Made by a program: the position numbers and the translations under genes
DNA from: Bacteroidota bacterium
GTDB lineage: Bacteria > Bacteroidota > Ignavibacteria > Kapaibacteriales > UBA961
Assembly: GCA_018266765.1 (NCBI GenBank)
Contig: JAFDZU010000041.1
Span: 46,934 to 103,166, forward strand
Reading direction: 5' to 3'
Length of the DNA stretch: 56,233 bases
Shown here: positions 17,546 through 22,569 of the stretch, one piece after another
Numbering within the stretch: the stretch's first letter is position 1
Layout of the letters: each line of letters begins with the position of its first letter
Notes under the pieces: model-generated
Told to the model about the DNA's origin: nothing
Database searches by the model: none
What the model saw: the letters and a program-made list of their open reading frames with translations, nothing else

Positions 17546-17561
17546 AAAAAATGTAGTTTTG
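17546..17561 (+). promoter_or_regulatory. candidate -7 box of the HD-GYP gene, copy of the 16569 element
   Basis: TAGTTTTG at 17554-17561 fits TAnnTTTG and lies 61 bases before the chosen ATG at 17622. The 16 bases ending here are identical to 16569-16584 upstream of gmhA. No good TTTG is present at the -33 position. Confidence 0.45.
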
Positions 17562-17621
17562 AGGCATTATAATCTTATAATTACAAAACCTCTAAACACT
17601 ATATATAGAATTATAAATATT

Positions 17622-18497
17622 ATGAGTAACAATAGTTCTTCTTTTGAAAGTTTTGCTGAACAAATTGCAACTCAACTTGCATCAAGTATTTTTCAAACAA
17701 CTGAATTGCTTGCTGAGCTTGTTCGAATGTCCGAAAAATATTACAGTAATAGTCATTCTGTATTTGTGGGTGAAAAATCAGAAGCAGTTGCAAGAAGTTT
17801 AGGGTGTAATGAAGGGGATTGTTTTGAGATAAAAACAGCCGGACTGCTTCATGATATAGGAAAAATAGGTTCCCCTGATAATATCTTATCAAGACAACCC
17901 AATGAACTTTCTACAGATGATTTTCGGTATTATTCGAGCCATATAGAAGAGGGGTACAGACTTCTTTCTATACACGAAGAATTAAAATCAATAGCAAACA
18001 TAGTATTTCAACATCATGAAAGGATAGATGGAAGCGGATTTCCAAATCGGCTTAAAAAAAATGATATCAACTTGGGTGCTAAAATTATAAGTGTTGTAGA
18101 TTATTACCATAATGCTATGTTTCGATTACCTCGTGATAAGAGGGCTTCAAACTCCCAAATAACAAACACTACAACTTATTTAGAATCCACTCACCCTCGA
18201 TTTGTTCAGACAATGAATTATCTGCATCAAAAATCAGGAATCTATTATTCTGTTGATGTTGTAGATGCTTTTACAGCGGTAATCGAAGCCGAGCGGCGAC
18301 AACTTGGTGAAAAAACTATATTACGAGTCGCTGTTAATCAGATTAAGCCCGGAATGTTATTTGCAAATGATTATTCAACTTCTTATGGCTTATTAATAGC
18401 TGCGAGTGGTGAACCGATATCTGAAGAAGCAATTAAACGATTAGTTTCACTCGCTGAAATTGGTGAGATTCCTTCTAAAATTTTAGTAATGAGATAG
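17622..18497 (+). CDS. HD-GYP domain protein, probable cyclic-di-GMP phosphodiesterase
   Basis: I start at ATG 17622 (291 residues), because the frame further upstream crosses the putative promoter. The HD-GYP domain spans about residues 35-225. Metal and signature residues are present: the H77-D78 pair in LLHDIGKIG, H107 in SSHIEEGYRLL, the H131-H132 pair in HHERIDGSGFP (GYP appears as GFP). Proteins of this kind hydrolyse cyclic di-GMP to GMP or pGpG. The N-terminal 35 residues are serine-rich without a recognisable sensor domain, and the C-terminal 60 residues form a small separate unit seen in related HD-GYP proteins. No REC domain is attached and no two-component gene is adjacent, so its input is unknown. 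Confidence 0.85.
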   Translation: MSNNSSSFESFAEQIATQLASSIFQTTELLAELVRMSEKYYSNSHSVFVGEKSEAVARSLGCNEGDCFEIKTAGLLHDIGKIGSPDNILSRQPNELSTDDFRYYSSHIEEGYRLLSIHEELKSIANIVFQHHERIDGSGFPNRLKKNDINLGAKIISVVDYYHNAMFRLPRDKRASNSQITNTTTYLESTHPRFVQTMNYLHQKSGIYYSVDVVDAFTAVIEAERRQLGEKTILRVAVNQIKPGMLFANDYSTSYGLLIAASGEPISEEAIKRLVSLAEIGEIPSKILVMR

Positions 18498-18513: not shown

Positions 18514-20709
18514 TTATTCAATTCGAAGACGAGCACCAATATAAACTAATCTACTATCAAGTGGTCCCCAAACAAGAGAAGCATCAAAATATTCATTGTG
18601 AGGTTCTTCTGGAGAAATAATCGCCTGTTTCTGTATGAAATTAGTAATATTTTCTATTCCTATATAAACGTCAAAAATTTCGAATCTTTTTGTCAGTTGA
18701 GCGTTCATTCTGAAAAATGAATCAAAAGTATCGTTAAATTGATATTTTATCGGATTATTAGCCGTCGACGGAATTCGCCCCCCACTATTCCAAATAAAAG
18801 TGCCATCAATTTGCCATTCTTGTTCTGTAGTTGCCCATGAAGCGGTCGCTAGGATACGGTGAGGGGAAATTAGTGCTCTTTCCTGAAGTTTACCACCAGT
18901 GGTCATCTTTGAATCAATGAATCGGTACGATACATTGAGATCGATTGAAGGAATTGGTGAAACACCTATTTGTACAAGAATACTGTTTGAAAAAGAAGTT
19001 CCACTGAGATTATCTATTTCTACAAGATGTTCATCTTTATCAAAATCTACAACAACTTGATTGGAAAAATCTGTACGATAAAATTCTGCATCAAATGAAA
19101 ATATTTTTTCCAATAATTCAAATGAACTAGTAAATGAAATTCCATAATTCCATGCTTTTTCGGGTCGAATAGAAGTTCCAAATCGAATAGTTCTCGAATT
19201 AGCAAAAGCTGAAAGATTGTCACTCACAATATTTGCAATTCTGACACCACTACCTGCTGAAAATCGAAGAGAAGTTAAATCAGATAATTCATATTTTCCA
19301 TGAAACCTCGGGGTAACAAATGTTCCAAAAGTATCATGAAAGTCAGCTCTAATTCCTGAAACTAATGTTAAATGAGAAATACCACTATACGTTACTTCAG
19401 TAAACATCCCAGGTACAGATTCACGTCGCGAAAAATCCTTTTGTAAGAATTGTTCATTGTAATCATCTAATAAATAACTTAATCCATAAATTAATTTAAA
19501 ATCTTCTGAAAACTCTGAACTGAATATTGCTTTTGCTTGAAACGTTTTTTGTAAACCGAAATAAAATCTTTCACCTAATTGAGTATGAGTGTCATGCCAA
19601 GCACCGGATAATTGAATCCCAAAGTTTGTTTCAGGAGACTCAAATAATGGATTCAAGCCTATTTTTGAGAAAAATTCATATCGTTTTGTTTGAGTTGAAA
19701 TGAGATAGTCATGAGAAAGTATATTCTCATCGTGTGTAGTGCTTCCGCTTGTATATTCATCATTCAAAATTTTTGTAAATAGTTGAAATTCAAGTCCTTG
19801 ATCACTTCTATGAAACACCCGAGCAATTGCATTATATTGTTGAAATTTTGGCATATCAATAAAACCATCTTCATTAGAATCCTGTTCGTGAGTGAACCGT
19901 CTTCCATGAATCATTGCCATCGTTTGCCAGTTTTCTCCAAGATGTTGAGCTGAAGTAAGATTTAATTCCATTCTACCCATTGAATTACCATATAGATTGA
20001 CAAACAGAGGTATATCTTTTTGCGGTTGCTTGTAGCAAATATTAATTTGTCCTGTTATTCCTTCATAACCATTAGTAATGGAAGCCGCACCCTTAGAAAT
20101 ACTGATATTATCTATGAAAGCACCCGGTATATATTCTAATCCAAAATTAGTAGCAAGTCCACGTATCGTTGGAATGGCTTCAGTAAGAAGTTGTGTATAT
20201 ATTCCACGCAAACCAAGTATTTGTATTTGTTTTGCTCCTGTGGCTGCATCAGAGAAACTTACTTCCACTGATGCACTTTTCTCGAAAGATTCAGCAAGTG
20301 AACAACACGCGGATTGCTCTAATTTTTTAGAAAAAATTTCCTCTGTTTTCATTAATGAATTGCTTATAATTGAACCTGTTTCAGCGGTAATACTAACTTC
20401 TTTTGATTCAAGATATTCTTCCAGATTAAATTCTACATATTGTTGATTTGTCGCCAGTAGAAGAGTATCAGGTTTATACCCCACATAGCTTGCAACTAAT
20501 GAATCTGTTGTAGAACGTTCAATAACAAATGTGCCATCAGATTTTGTAATTGCACCGAGTGTTGTGCCAAGCCAACGTATAGTAGCTCCGGGCAATGGTT
20601 TTAAAGCTTCTTGTTTCTGTTTGCCATTCACAATTCCTTTGATTTGTTCAGAGAAAAGTGGCTGATAGAACACAAATAATAGTAATAAAATTTTTGATGT
20701 GTATTTCAT
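18514..20709 (-). CDS. TonB-dependent receptor, probably for metal (copper?) uptake
   Basis: A 731-residue outer-membrane receptor. After a signal peptide (to about residue 20), a carboxypeptidase-regulatory-like domain (about 22-100) precedes the plug (about 110-235), and the rest is a beta-barrel ending in LVYIGARLRIE. The plug has GLRGIYTQLLTEAIPTIRGL near 168-187. A Cys-Cys pair (C135-C136, in EQSACCSLAESFE) sits at the start of the plug, unusual for a receptor but consistent with binding a thiophilic metal. Ten bases upstream is a heavy-metal-associated protein gene, with a second one and a HYC_CC_PP gene before it, which suggests copper or another soft metal as substrate. The metal itself is inferred. 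Confidence 0.85.
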   Translation of the reverse strand: MKYTSKILLLLFVFYQPLFSEQIKGIVNGKQKQEALKPLPGATIRWLGTTLGAITKSDGTFVIERSTTDSLVASYVGYKPDTLLLATNQQYVEFNLEEYLESKEVSITAETGSIISNSLMKTEEIFSKKLEQSACCSLAESFEKSASVEVSFSDAATGAKQIQILGLRGIYTQLLTEAIPTIRGLATNFGLEYIPGAFIDNISISKGAASITNGYEGITGQINICYKQPQKDIPLFVNLYGNSMGRMELNLTSAQHLGENWQTMAMIHGRRFTHEQDSNEDGFIDMPKFQQYNAIARVFHRSDQGLEFQLFTKILNDEYTSGSTTHDENILSHDYLISTQTKRYEFFSKIGLNPLFESPETNFGIQLSGAWHDTHTQLGERFYFGLQKTFQAKAIFSSEFSEDFKLIYGLSYLLDDYNEQFLQKDFSRRESVPGMFTEVTYSGISHLTLVSGIRADFHDTFGTFVTPRFHGKYELSDLTSLRFSAGSGVRIANIVSDNLSAFANSRTIRFGTSIRPEKAWNYGISFTSSFELLEKIFSFDAEFYRTDFSNQVVVDFDKDEHLVEIDNLSGTSFSNSILVQIGVSPIPSIDLNVSYRFIDSKMTTGGKLQERALISPHRILATASWATTEQEWQIDGTFIWNSGGRIPSTANNPIKYQFNDTFDSFFRMNAQLTKRFEIFDVYIGIENITNFIQKQAIISPEEPHNEYFDASLVWGPLDSRLVYIGARLRIE

Positions 20710-20719
20710 TAAGTATAGT

Positions 20720-20941
20720 TTAAGTTGTTGATTGTTGTAGAGTAATCTGAAATCCTAAATTTTGTATTGAGGATATTATTTGCTCAGGTATTATATCTAT
20801 ATTTTGAATCGTAAGTATTTTATCCGAAGTTGAAGTATCTACATTCCAATTTGATTCACCTACCAAATTATTTAATGTTGAAGTAACTTTACTTATACAA
20901 CCACCACAATTTATTGTAGTTTTAAAGGTTTGAGTTGTCAT
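20720..20941 (-). CDS. Heavy-metal-associated (HMA) domain protein, cytoplasmic metallochaperone-like
   Basis: A 73-residue protein consisting of one ferredoxin-like HMA domain. The metal-binding C-x-x-C is C12-G-G-C15 (TTINCGGCISKV). There is no signal peptide, so it is probably cytoplasmic, like CopZ/Atx1. CGGC instead of the canonical MxCxxC (here INCGGC) is common in this phylum. It sits 10 bases upstream of the TonB-dependent receptor and 49 bases downstream of a secreted HMA protein, so it belongs to the same operon. It would carry Cu(I) or a similar ion; no P-type ATPase partner is in the window. Confidence 0.85.
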   Translation of the reverse strand: MTTQTFKTTINCGGCISKVTSTLNNLVGESNWNVDTSTSDKILTIQNIDIIPEQIISSIQNLGFQITLQQSTT

Positions 20942-20990
20942 TTTTATTTTTATTAAATATTTGAATTAATTACAGTTTCTCTATATTTAT

Positions 20991-21341
20991 CTATTCATTT
21001 TTTTTTCGTTCATATCGACAGCATTTATGAAGATTAGAATATGCTTCCTCATCTGCTGTTGTTTCAGATGTGTCATATCCAGCATCAGCAATCTTTTTGT
21101 GAATAATTGCTGTTGTTGTGATGGTAGAATCAAAAGTAACTGTAATTATTTTTGTGGATTTATTCCAAACAGCTTCAATAGATCCTGATTCTTTAACAGC
21201 TTTTTCGATATTTTTTTTACACATTCCACAATTTCCCCAAACTTTAAAAGTTTCGATTTTTGAATTAGAAATTGTTTGAGAATAAAGAGTTGTACAGAAT
21301 AAAAAGCAAAAACTGACTAAAGATAATAATAAGTATTTCAT
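20991..21341 (-). CDS. Secreted heavy-metal-associated domain protein with C-terminal CC motif
   Basis: A 116-residue exported HMA-domain protein. It has a signal peptide ending near LYSQ (residue 22), then a single HMA domain with C38-G-M-C41, and a C-terminal tail NLHKCCRYERKK with a second Cys pair (C107-C108). The tail after the HMA fold is a pattern seen in Bacteroidota periplasmic metal-binding proteins. An AAAGGA Shine-Dalgarno sequence lies 5 bases before the ATG. It is the upstream neighbour of the cytoplasmic HMA gene (49-base gap) and follows the HYC_CC_PP gene by 189 bases. It probably relays metal in the periplasm. Confidence 0.84.
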   Translation of the reverse strand: MKYLLLSLVSFCFLFCTTLYSQTISNSKIETFKVWGNCGMCKKNIEKAVKESGSIEAVWNKSTKIITVTFDSTITTTAIIHKKIADAGYDTSETTADEEAYSNLHKCCRYERKKNE

Positions 21342-21530
21342 AAGTTCCTTTATAGATTAAAATTAATTTGGAAAGTAAAGTATAGAGTAGAACATCAATT
21401 GGTAATTTTAGAGAAATGAATTCAATAAAACTACAAATGGAATAATAGAATTCTTGCAATAGAAATTCAAATAATATTCACGATAACATAAAGAAGATTT
21501 GATATTAACAACTCTTCAATGTAATGTGAA

Positions 21531-21923
21531 TCAAACTAATAGAGAGCGAACTCGAATAAAGAGAGGTAAATGGGGATATAACGGTGGGGGAGCATGGTAA
21601 TCAGATAATCTAGTAACTAAGTACAAATTTCTATTGCTAGTTTGTAAAGTAGAAAATAATGATGATGATTGAATCTGGGGTGGATTTTGTTGTAAATTAT
21701 ATAAAGAAATTAATTGGTGGAAATCTATTGATTGAACAACTATTAGTTGGTCAGAACAGCAATCGAATTGTTCTGTTTCAGTATCACAACAACATTCAAG
21801 TTTTGAATTACTATTTATTTCTAATTCTTCAAAATTGTCTCCACAATAATGAAGTTTTGCTGACATACCAAGTGTAGAAAGCAAATACAACAATAAAAAT
21901 AAAATAGAAGTTAACCTTTTCAT
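21531..21923 (-). CDS. HYC_CC_PP family protein (cysteine-rich, secreted)
   Basis: A 130-residue protein with an N-terminal signal or anchor helix (residues 3-20). The family-naming motifs are all visible: HYC at 25-27 (KLHYCGD), Cys clusters at 44-46 (ECCCD) and 55-56 (FDCCSD), and a proline-rich APPPLYPHLP near the C-terminus. HYC_CC_PP proteins are found in Bacteroidota, usually beside TonB-dependent receptors and HMA proteins, and have no established biochemical role; the cysteine content suggests metal binding. It begins just downstream of a strong hairpin (21947-21980) that separates it from tlpA. No promoter matching TAnnTTTG was seen. Confidence 0.82.
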   Translation of the reverse strand: MKRLTSILFLLLYLLSTLGMSAKLHYCGDNFEELEINSNSKLECCCDTETEQFDCCSDQLIVVQSIDFHQLISLYNLQQNPPQIQSSSLFSTLQTSNRNLYLVTRLSDYHAPPPLYPHLPLFIRVRSLLV

Positions 21924-21940
21924 TATTAATATAATTACTA

Positions 21941-21980
21941 TAAATGTACAGGCGGAAGAAATGTAAATCTTCCGCCTGTA
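21941..21980 (-). terminator. terminator or attenuator hairpin between tlpA and the HYC_CC_PP gene
   Basis: Perfect 13-base arms at 21947-21959 and 21968-21980 enclose an 8-base loop. It lies 11 bases after the tlpA stop. On the minus strand the following bases are T-rich but not a pure T-run, and only about 23 bases remain before the next ATG. Confidence 0.7.
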
Positions 21981-21990
21981 TAAAAATAAC

Positions 21991-22569
21991 TTATTTGTTT
22001 TGACTTTGGTTCAATTTCATCGCTTTTTGAATTGCTGTTATAAACTCAGCTTTAGATTTCATTCCAGAAATCTTCTCCGAAACTGTACCGTCGCTGGTAA
22101 GGATAAAAGTCGAAGGAATTGCTGTGATTCCACCGTATGCCTCGGCAAGAGCTTCGTTACCCACTACAACAGTATATGGTAAATTTTTCACACGTACAAA
22201 TTTGCTGACAGTATTGATAGCATCTTGGTCTCTGTCCATAGAAACCCCAATAACAACGAACTCTGTATTCGGAAATTCTTTGCTTAATTCAATAATATCT
22301 GGAATCTCTTTTCGGCAAGGTGCACACCATGTAGCCCAAAAATTAAGAAATACCACTTTGTTTTTTCCTATTTCTGATAAAGAAACTTGTTTATCTCCTT
22401 CCATCCAAGTAAAGTCTGCAACTTTGTTGCCTACAGGAGAAGTAACTGTTTTAACAGGATATACCTTAGGTGTTGTTTGAGCCATTACCGGGACGACTAA
22501 TAAAGCAAATGTGGCTGCGCTTGTAAGCAACATCCTACGAAAATTGCCTTTGAAATGACTGAAAATCAT
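21991..22569 (-). CDS. TlpA/ResA-family thioredoxin-like protein
   Basis: A 192-residue exported thiol-disulfide oxidoreductase. A signal peptide ends near VMAQ (residue 31), and the thioredoxin fold has the active site WCAPC with C82 and C85, followed by the cis-proline region AIPSTFIL near 154-161. AGGAGA lies 5 bases before the ATG, a strong Shine-Dalgarno. TlpA-type proteins keep periplasmic cysteines reduced, for example in cytochrome c maturation and in copper delivery to cytochrome oxidase. Its position ahead of the HYC_CC_PP/HMA/TonB genes suggests a role in reducing their cysteines, but a hairpin lies between and this link is inference. Confidence 0.9.
   Translation of the reverse strand: MIFSHFKGNFRRMLLTSAATFALLVVPVMAQTTPKVYPVKTVTSPVGNKVADFTWMEGDKQVSLSEIGKNKVVFLNFWATWCAPCRKEIPDIIELSKEFPNTEFVVIGVSMDRDQDAINTVSKFVRVKNLPYTVVVGNEALAEAYGGITAIPSTFILTSDGTVSEKISGMKSKAEFITAIQKAMKLNQSQNK

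Follow-up and report, generated by a model that had tools for sequence, protein, structure and literature searches.

We describe here a group of genes around a TonB-dependent receptor in a 56,233-nucleotide stretch of DNA from a Bacteroidota bacterium of the order Kapaibacteriales (assembly GCA_018266765.1, contig JAFDZU010000041.1, positions 46,934 to 103,166), the whole of which we call the window. A preliminary description of the sequence had drawn attention to five consecutive minus-strand genes, at positions 18514 to 22569, for a periplasmic thioredoxin of the TlpA type, a protein of the HYC_CC_PP family, a secreted and a cytoplasmic protein with HMA domains, and a receptor with two adjacent cysteines, C135 and C136, in its plug. 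All five genes and their cysteine motifs are indeed present (Table 1), and the cysteine pair sits just within the Pfam match to the plug (residues 124-220).

Table 1. Features of the receptor locus in the window
Feature	Position	Strand	Remarks
TonB-dependent receptor, clade A	18514..20709	-	731 amino acids; CarbopepD_reg_2, plug and barrel (Pfam); PF07715 24.5 bits (cut-off 23.9), PF00593 64.7 bits
Codons of C135 and C136, receptor plug	20302..20307	-	TGT TGT; direct reading
Small cytoplasmic HMA protein, CopZ-like	20720..20941	-	CGGC; no signal peptide; PF00403 23.0 bits, barely under the cut-off of 24.8 (E 1e-4)
Secreted HMA protein	20991..21341	-	CGMC; C-terminal HKCCRYER; PF00403 25.4 bits, barely over the cut-off of 24.8
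HYC_CC_PP family protein	21531..21923	-	NF047658 50 bits (28 required); conserved C27, C45, C55, C56
13-bp hairpin, likely terminator behind TlpA, start of module	21947..21980	-	fold z -7.5
TlpA/ResA-like periplasmic thioredoxin, neighbor of module	21991..22569	-	WCAPC; AhpC-TSA 84.6 bits; Pfam and NCBIfam

Relatives of the receptor were collected by whole-protein searches, including searches of 198 genomes of the phylum, and were divided into a clade A (E below about 1e-74) and a clade B (mostly 22-28% identical). As judged by sequence, the receptor of the window is a member of clade A, a distinct group of TonB-dependent receptors from Bacteroidota and allied phyla. In the first set of receptors that was fetched, the sequence ACC occupies the place of the cysteine pair in all 41 members of clade A and in none of 20 members of clade B. 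A second set added 14 members of clade A, all with ACC, and six other receptors that lack ACC and also lack HMA and HYC_CC_PP neighbors. These 55 of a total of 136 clade-A sequences were obtained by whole-protein search, in which the motif was not used; 80 further loci came from a scan of named genomes, a scan that is biased because the cysteine motif was one of its two search patterns, and in two of them PCC replaces ACC. Both cysteine columns are 100% conserved in the 136 sequences, and the pair is present in 0 of 26 other receptors. Since few positions of the receptor are invariant (55 of 731 in a subset of 46 homologues), conservation of this kind is far above chance. On a FastTree phylogeny, in which long branches were flagged, the pair requires a single change. 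That the pair is a general feature of such receptors is ruled out by clade B, the members of which (loci L047-L066) have a conserved CxxC-like motif (CNVC or CAVC) elsewhere in the plug. A gene for a DtxR-type regulator lies near 12 of the 20 clade-B receptors, and the one that was checked encodes an iron-dependent repressor with a FeoA domain; clade B may thus be an iron-type receptor with a cysteine motif of its own.

We then asked which genes accompany the receptor, using profiles grown from the HMA and HYC_CC_PP proteins of the window itself. Among the 65 clade-A loci with at least 1.5 kb of sequence on both sides, a HYC_CC_PP gene was found within 3 kb and on the same strand in 55, and an HMA domain within 3 kb or fused to the receptor in 47; both were found in 43 and neither in six. 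The same profiles detected neither family within about 5 kb of any of the 20 clade-B receptors. The receptor, HYC_CC_PP and HMA proteins, which had been proposed to belong together, are thus a real and recurrent unit. At the level of genomes, 32 of 49 with a clade-A receptor encode NF047658, versus 26 of 149 that lack such a receptor (odds ratio 8.9, p 9e-10 in the 198 genomes, the p value being only a guide since genomes share ancestry). A short gene for an AraC-type regulator adjoins the receptor in seven loci (L082, L094, L105, L107, L109, L118 and L140), and the copy in L094 starts with an HMA-like stretch (MVCDRCK); this regulator is a candidate copper sensor.

The association with HMA domains goes further than adjacency. 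In 17 relatives (14 of the named loci and three other genomes) the receptor open reading frame itself opens with an HMA domain, mostly after a signal-peptide-like start, and is followed by CarbopepD_reg_2, plug and barrel, an order seen by Pfam in two of them. The fusions in the 14 named loci carry a CC-containing tail after the HMA domain, typically LPxCCxYR, and the separate secreted HMA protein of the window ends alike, in CCRYER. The fused state accounts for at least five changes on the tree, a count that does not separate gains from losses. Nothing else argues as strongly as these fusions for action of the secreted HMA protein on the periplasmic side of the receptor. In one locus (L126, 7620-10175) the receptor-fused HMA domain has CDALC, a CxxxC motif, instead of CxxC.

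Several neighbors are of kinds associated with copper. In a sister genome (L170), whose receptor is 73% identical to that of the window, the gene order is TlpA, hairpin, HYC_CC_PP, HMA1, CopA, HMA2 and receptor, and on the copper model TIGR01511, for which 397 bits are required, the ATPase inside this operon reaches 595.7. Genes for CPC (Cu-type) ATPases lie on the same strand near the receptor in seven of the 80 named loci, including ones from Dyadobacter and Bacteroides, versus 0 of 20 clade-B loci, and the ATPases of the loci pass TIGR01511 and score lower on the Zn, Cd, Hg and Pb models. HMBD genes stand beside the receptor in eight loci, and YHS genes in three Ignavibacteria-type loci that lack an HMA gene. 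In these three (L075, L084 and L088) the YHS-domain gene is directly behind the receptor, as if copper carriers had been swapped. At the module itself the window genome lacks CopA, and its sole ATPase over the TIGR01511 cut-off is encoded on another contig. The second HYC_CC_PP gene of that genome (contig C67; L183 9472-18420 and L184 1-8386) is found within an apparent copper-efflux island that comprises a multicopper oxidase, a transporter of the resistance-nodulation-division (RND) type, an adaptor with HMBD and a CopA with HMBD (the transporter and adaptor having been recognized by eye). A link to copper may be general in the HYC_CC_PP family. The context of the module, then, is one of copper or silver, and it fits supply and tolerance alike. 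The preliminary description had proposed a path for a soft metal that led from the receptor plug, through periplasmic carriers, to the cytoplasm. The copper-type context (CopA ATPases, HMBD and YHS) speaks for the metal, but the small CGGC protein, which had been placed at the inward end of the path, is better read otherwise: because both the sister genome and L146 (the latter by eye) have a homologue of it beside CopA, its sequence is best read as that of a CopZ-like partner of CopA.

The TlpA gene, in contrast to the other four, does not belong to the module, of which it had been considered a part. Between it and the HYC_CC_PP gene is a hairpin (read from 21980 to 21947) that no shuffled sequence equaled in folding and that is likely to be a transcription terminator, although the run of T residues behind it is weak; at the equivalent place in the sister genome there is also a hairpin, with another sequence. 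Relatives of TlpA occur near 10 of 80 clade-A receptors, at scattered places, as compared to 8 of 20 clade-B control loci. Within the genus TlpA is retained beside the module, but so are two more genes upstream of it, and its linkage is therefore one of general synteny. The hairpin, the wider synteny and counts no higher than those near the control receptors rule it out as a fifth member.

Where in the plug is the cysteine pair located? An AlphaFold2 (AF2) model of the receptor was good (pLDDT, the model's own confidence score, of 87.6), and comparisons with Foldseek and VIA, which show the general fold and nothing finer, identified it as that of a TonB-dependent transporter, with Cir, BtuB and OprC matched at Z 30-35 (VIA); Cir and BtuB were the closest, and OprC was matched at Z 30-31. 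Placement of the pair rests on sequence and range alignments. In a profile alignment C135 and C136 fall opposite positions 40-41 of the Cir chain, immediately before the first plug helix, and they follow a Ton-box-like stretch, EVSITA (104-109), by approximately 31 residues. In BtuB, pulling by TonB unfolds a stretch of 50 residues that follows the Ton box region (23-73; PMC5413942). Because the pair aligns with the equivalent of that half of the BtuB plug which is mechanically weak, by analogy it most likely resides in the part of the plug that TonB draws out. The model of a fused receptor (L146) had a plug pLDDT under 50 and was too weak for contact between HMA domain and plug to be judged. 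In the barrel, residues 277-285 form an EF-hand-like stretch, DxNxDGFxD, that hardly varies within the clade (D277, N279, D281 and D285) and could be a calcium site.

A distinct receptor clade with an invariant cysteine pair, its linkage to HYC_CC_PP and HMA genes, its fusion to the secreted HMA protein, and the presence of CopA in the operon of several lineages, including the sister genome, together make it most probable that the module serves the uptake and handling of copper (or silver) in Bacteroidota and their relatives, a reading to which we assign a probability of a little under 0.6. In the scheme that follows we infer metal binding by the cysteine pair, the identity of the metal as Cu(I), the direction of transport and the role of HYC_CC_PP. 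The ligand of the receptor would be Cu(I) or else a chelate of copper, which the receptor would strip, and a thiolate site formed by C135 and C136, in the N-terminal half of the plug, would hold the Cu(I). By pulling this half from the barrel, as in BtuB, TonB would bring the metal into the periplasm. There the CxxC motif of the secreted or fused HMA domain would take it over; HYC_CC_PP might be a further cysteine-rich carrier. The HMA carrier would supply periplasmic copper proteins, and the CopZ-like protein, together with CopA where present, would send back copper that enters the cytoplasm. TlpA would be unnecessary.

Three observations weigh against this reading. First, of ligands that might complete a copper site, the 136 clade-A sequences have no strongly conserved histidine but H268 (97%) and no conserved methionine column besides the start methionine. 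Second, the cysteine pair is kept in the six of 65 well-flanked loci, and in several borderline members of clade A, that have neither HYC_CC_PP nor HMA neighbors. It had been suggested that conservation of the pair be compared between receptors in this context and receptors outside it; the pair does follow the clade that has the context, but because members without the neighbors keep it too, it is a property of the clade and not strictly of the context. Third, CopA and HMBD neighbors suit tolerance as well as supply.

It is conceivable, on this last account, that the module serves copper tolerance: it would be induced by excess copper, HYC_CC_PP, HMA proteins and CopA would buffer or expel the metal, and the receptor would import a copper-binding ligand or sense at the surface. 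CopA and HMBD genes adjoin the receptor in some loci, the HYC_CC_PP paralogue of the window genome is part of the efflux island described above, and RND efflux genes adjoin the receptor on a Haliscomenobacter plasmid. We nonetheless judge a tolerance module unlikely, as TonB-dependent receptors are importers, and as efflux genes are missing beside the receptor in most loci, CopA being near in only the seven noted above. We hold it rather more doubtful that the cysteine pair is redox-active or structural, a thiol switch or vicinal disulfide that governs opening of the plug. Full invariance would be equally expected of such a pair, and periplasmic proteins with a thioredoxin fold are common, but the one at hand, TlpA, is unlinked to the receptor clade and is set apart from the module by the hairpin, and the pair keeps company with HMA and copper genes. 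Finally, a soft metal other than copper or silver (Hg, Cd or Zn) is improbable as the substrate: HMA domains bind several soft metals and the secreted HMA protein has weak MerP-like scores, but the ATPases of the loci favor the copper model, and no mer genes were recognized among the neighbor clusters and locus maps that were looked at.

Copper uptake by the module invites comparison with known systems. The preliminary description had called a metal-coordinating plug unusual, but there is a precedent in OprC of Pseudomonas aeruginosa, a receptor for ionic copper, whose ligands are C143 and M147 in the plug and H323 and M325 in the barrel (PMC8610252). The two receptors have in common the fold of a TonB-dependent transporter and a plug cysteine that is bound (OprC) or proposed to be bound (here) to copper. 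They differ in that C143 and M147 lie at least 75 residues past the start of the OprC Ton box (68-75; PMC8610252), whereas here a vicinal pair is found much closer to the Ton-box-like stretch, with no conserved methionine and with HMA and HYC_CC_PP partners. The absence of the CxxxM-HxM ligands and the location of the pair elsewhere in the plug rule out membership in the OprC type, and the pair would mark a separate type of copper receptor. CrtA of Bordetella pertussis, likewise a TonB-dependent copper transporter tied to copper supply, imports chelated Cu(II) by means of an invariant histidine. The small CGGC protein and the ATPase gene in the sister genome recall the CopA/CopZ export pair, but here they come together with a receptor of the outer membrane, HYC_CC_PP and a secreted HMA protein, and the module of the window lacks CopA. 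The HYC_CC_PP protein of the window is a member of NF047658, a family without a known role that is here tied to the receptor clade and to copper genes. More tentatively, the receptor could represent a class of copper transporter that is new. A vicinal cysteine pair in the force-labile half of the plug would bring Cu(I) to the periplasm and hand it, in a direct relay from plug to chaperone, to an HMA metallochaperone that is often the receptor's own N-terminal domain.

The module is widespread and apparently undescribed. No copper-receptor model was among the 15 NCBIfam families listed for the receptor at E up to 0.1, and related receptors are found on four plasmid records, in the three examined of which they are annotated merely as TonB-dependent receptors. 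Literature searches on HYC_CC_PP, on TonB with HMA and on copper uptake in Flavobacteria and Bacteroides, which covered few subscription papers, found no description of clade A. The copper transporters they did find are of other types (OprC, CrtA and MbnT, and an OprC-like candidate in Bizionia), and those parts of an iron-stimulon paper that a search by term brings up (PMC10434189) contain no link to the clade. Little is known of how copper is acquired at the outer membrane, and the transporters described so far are chiefly proteobacterial. If the reading as an uptake system is true, Bacteroidota, including Bacteroides and Parabacteroides of the gut, would gain a candidate copper route with a recognizable signature, [AP]CC in the plug together with HMA and HYC_CC_PP genes, and the HYC_CC_PP family would gain a context. 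The fusions would make the hand-over from plug to periplasmic carrier testable inside one protein.

Finally, we note that a gene for an HD-domain protein (17559-18497) is convergent with the receptor gene. Its product resembles phosphodiesterases of the NosR family that act on cyclic di-GMP, although its score (154.5 bits) is below the cut-off of 400, and the same gene adjoins the receptor in the sister genome too.

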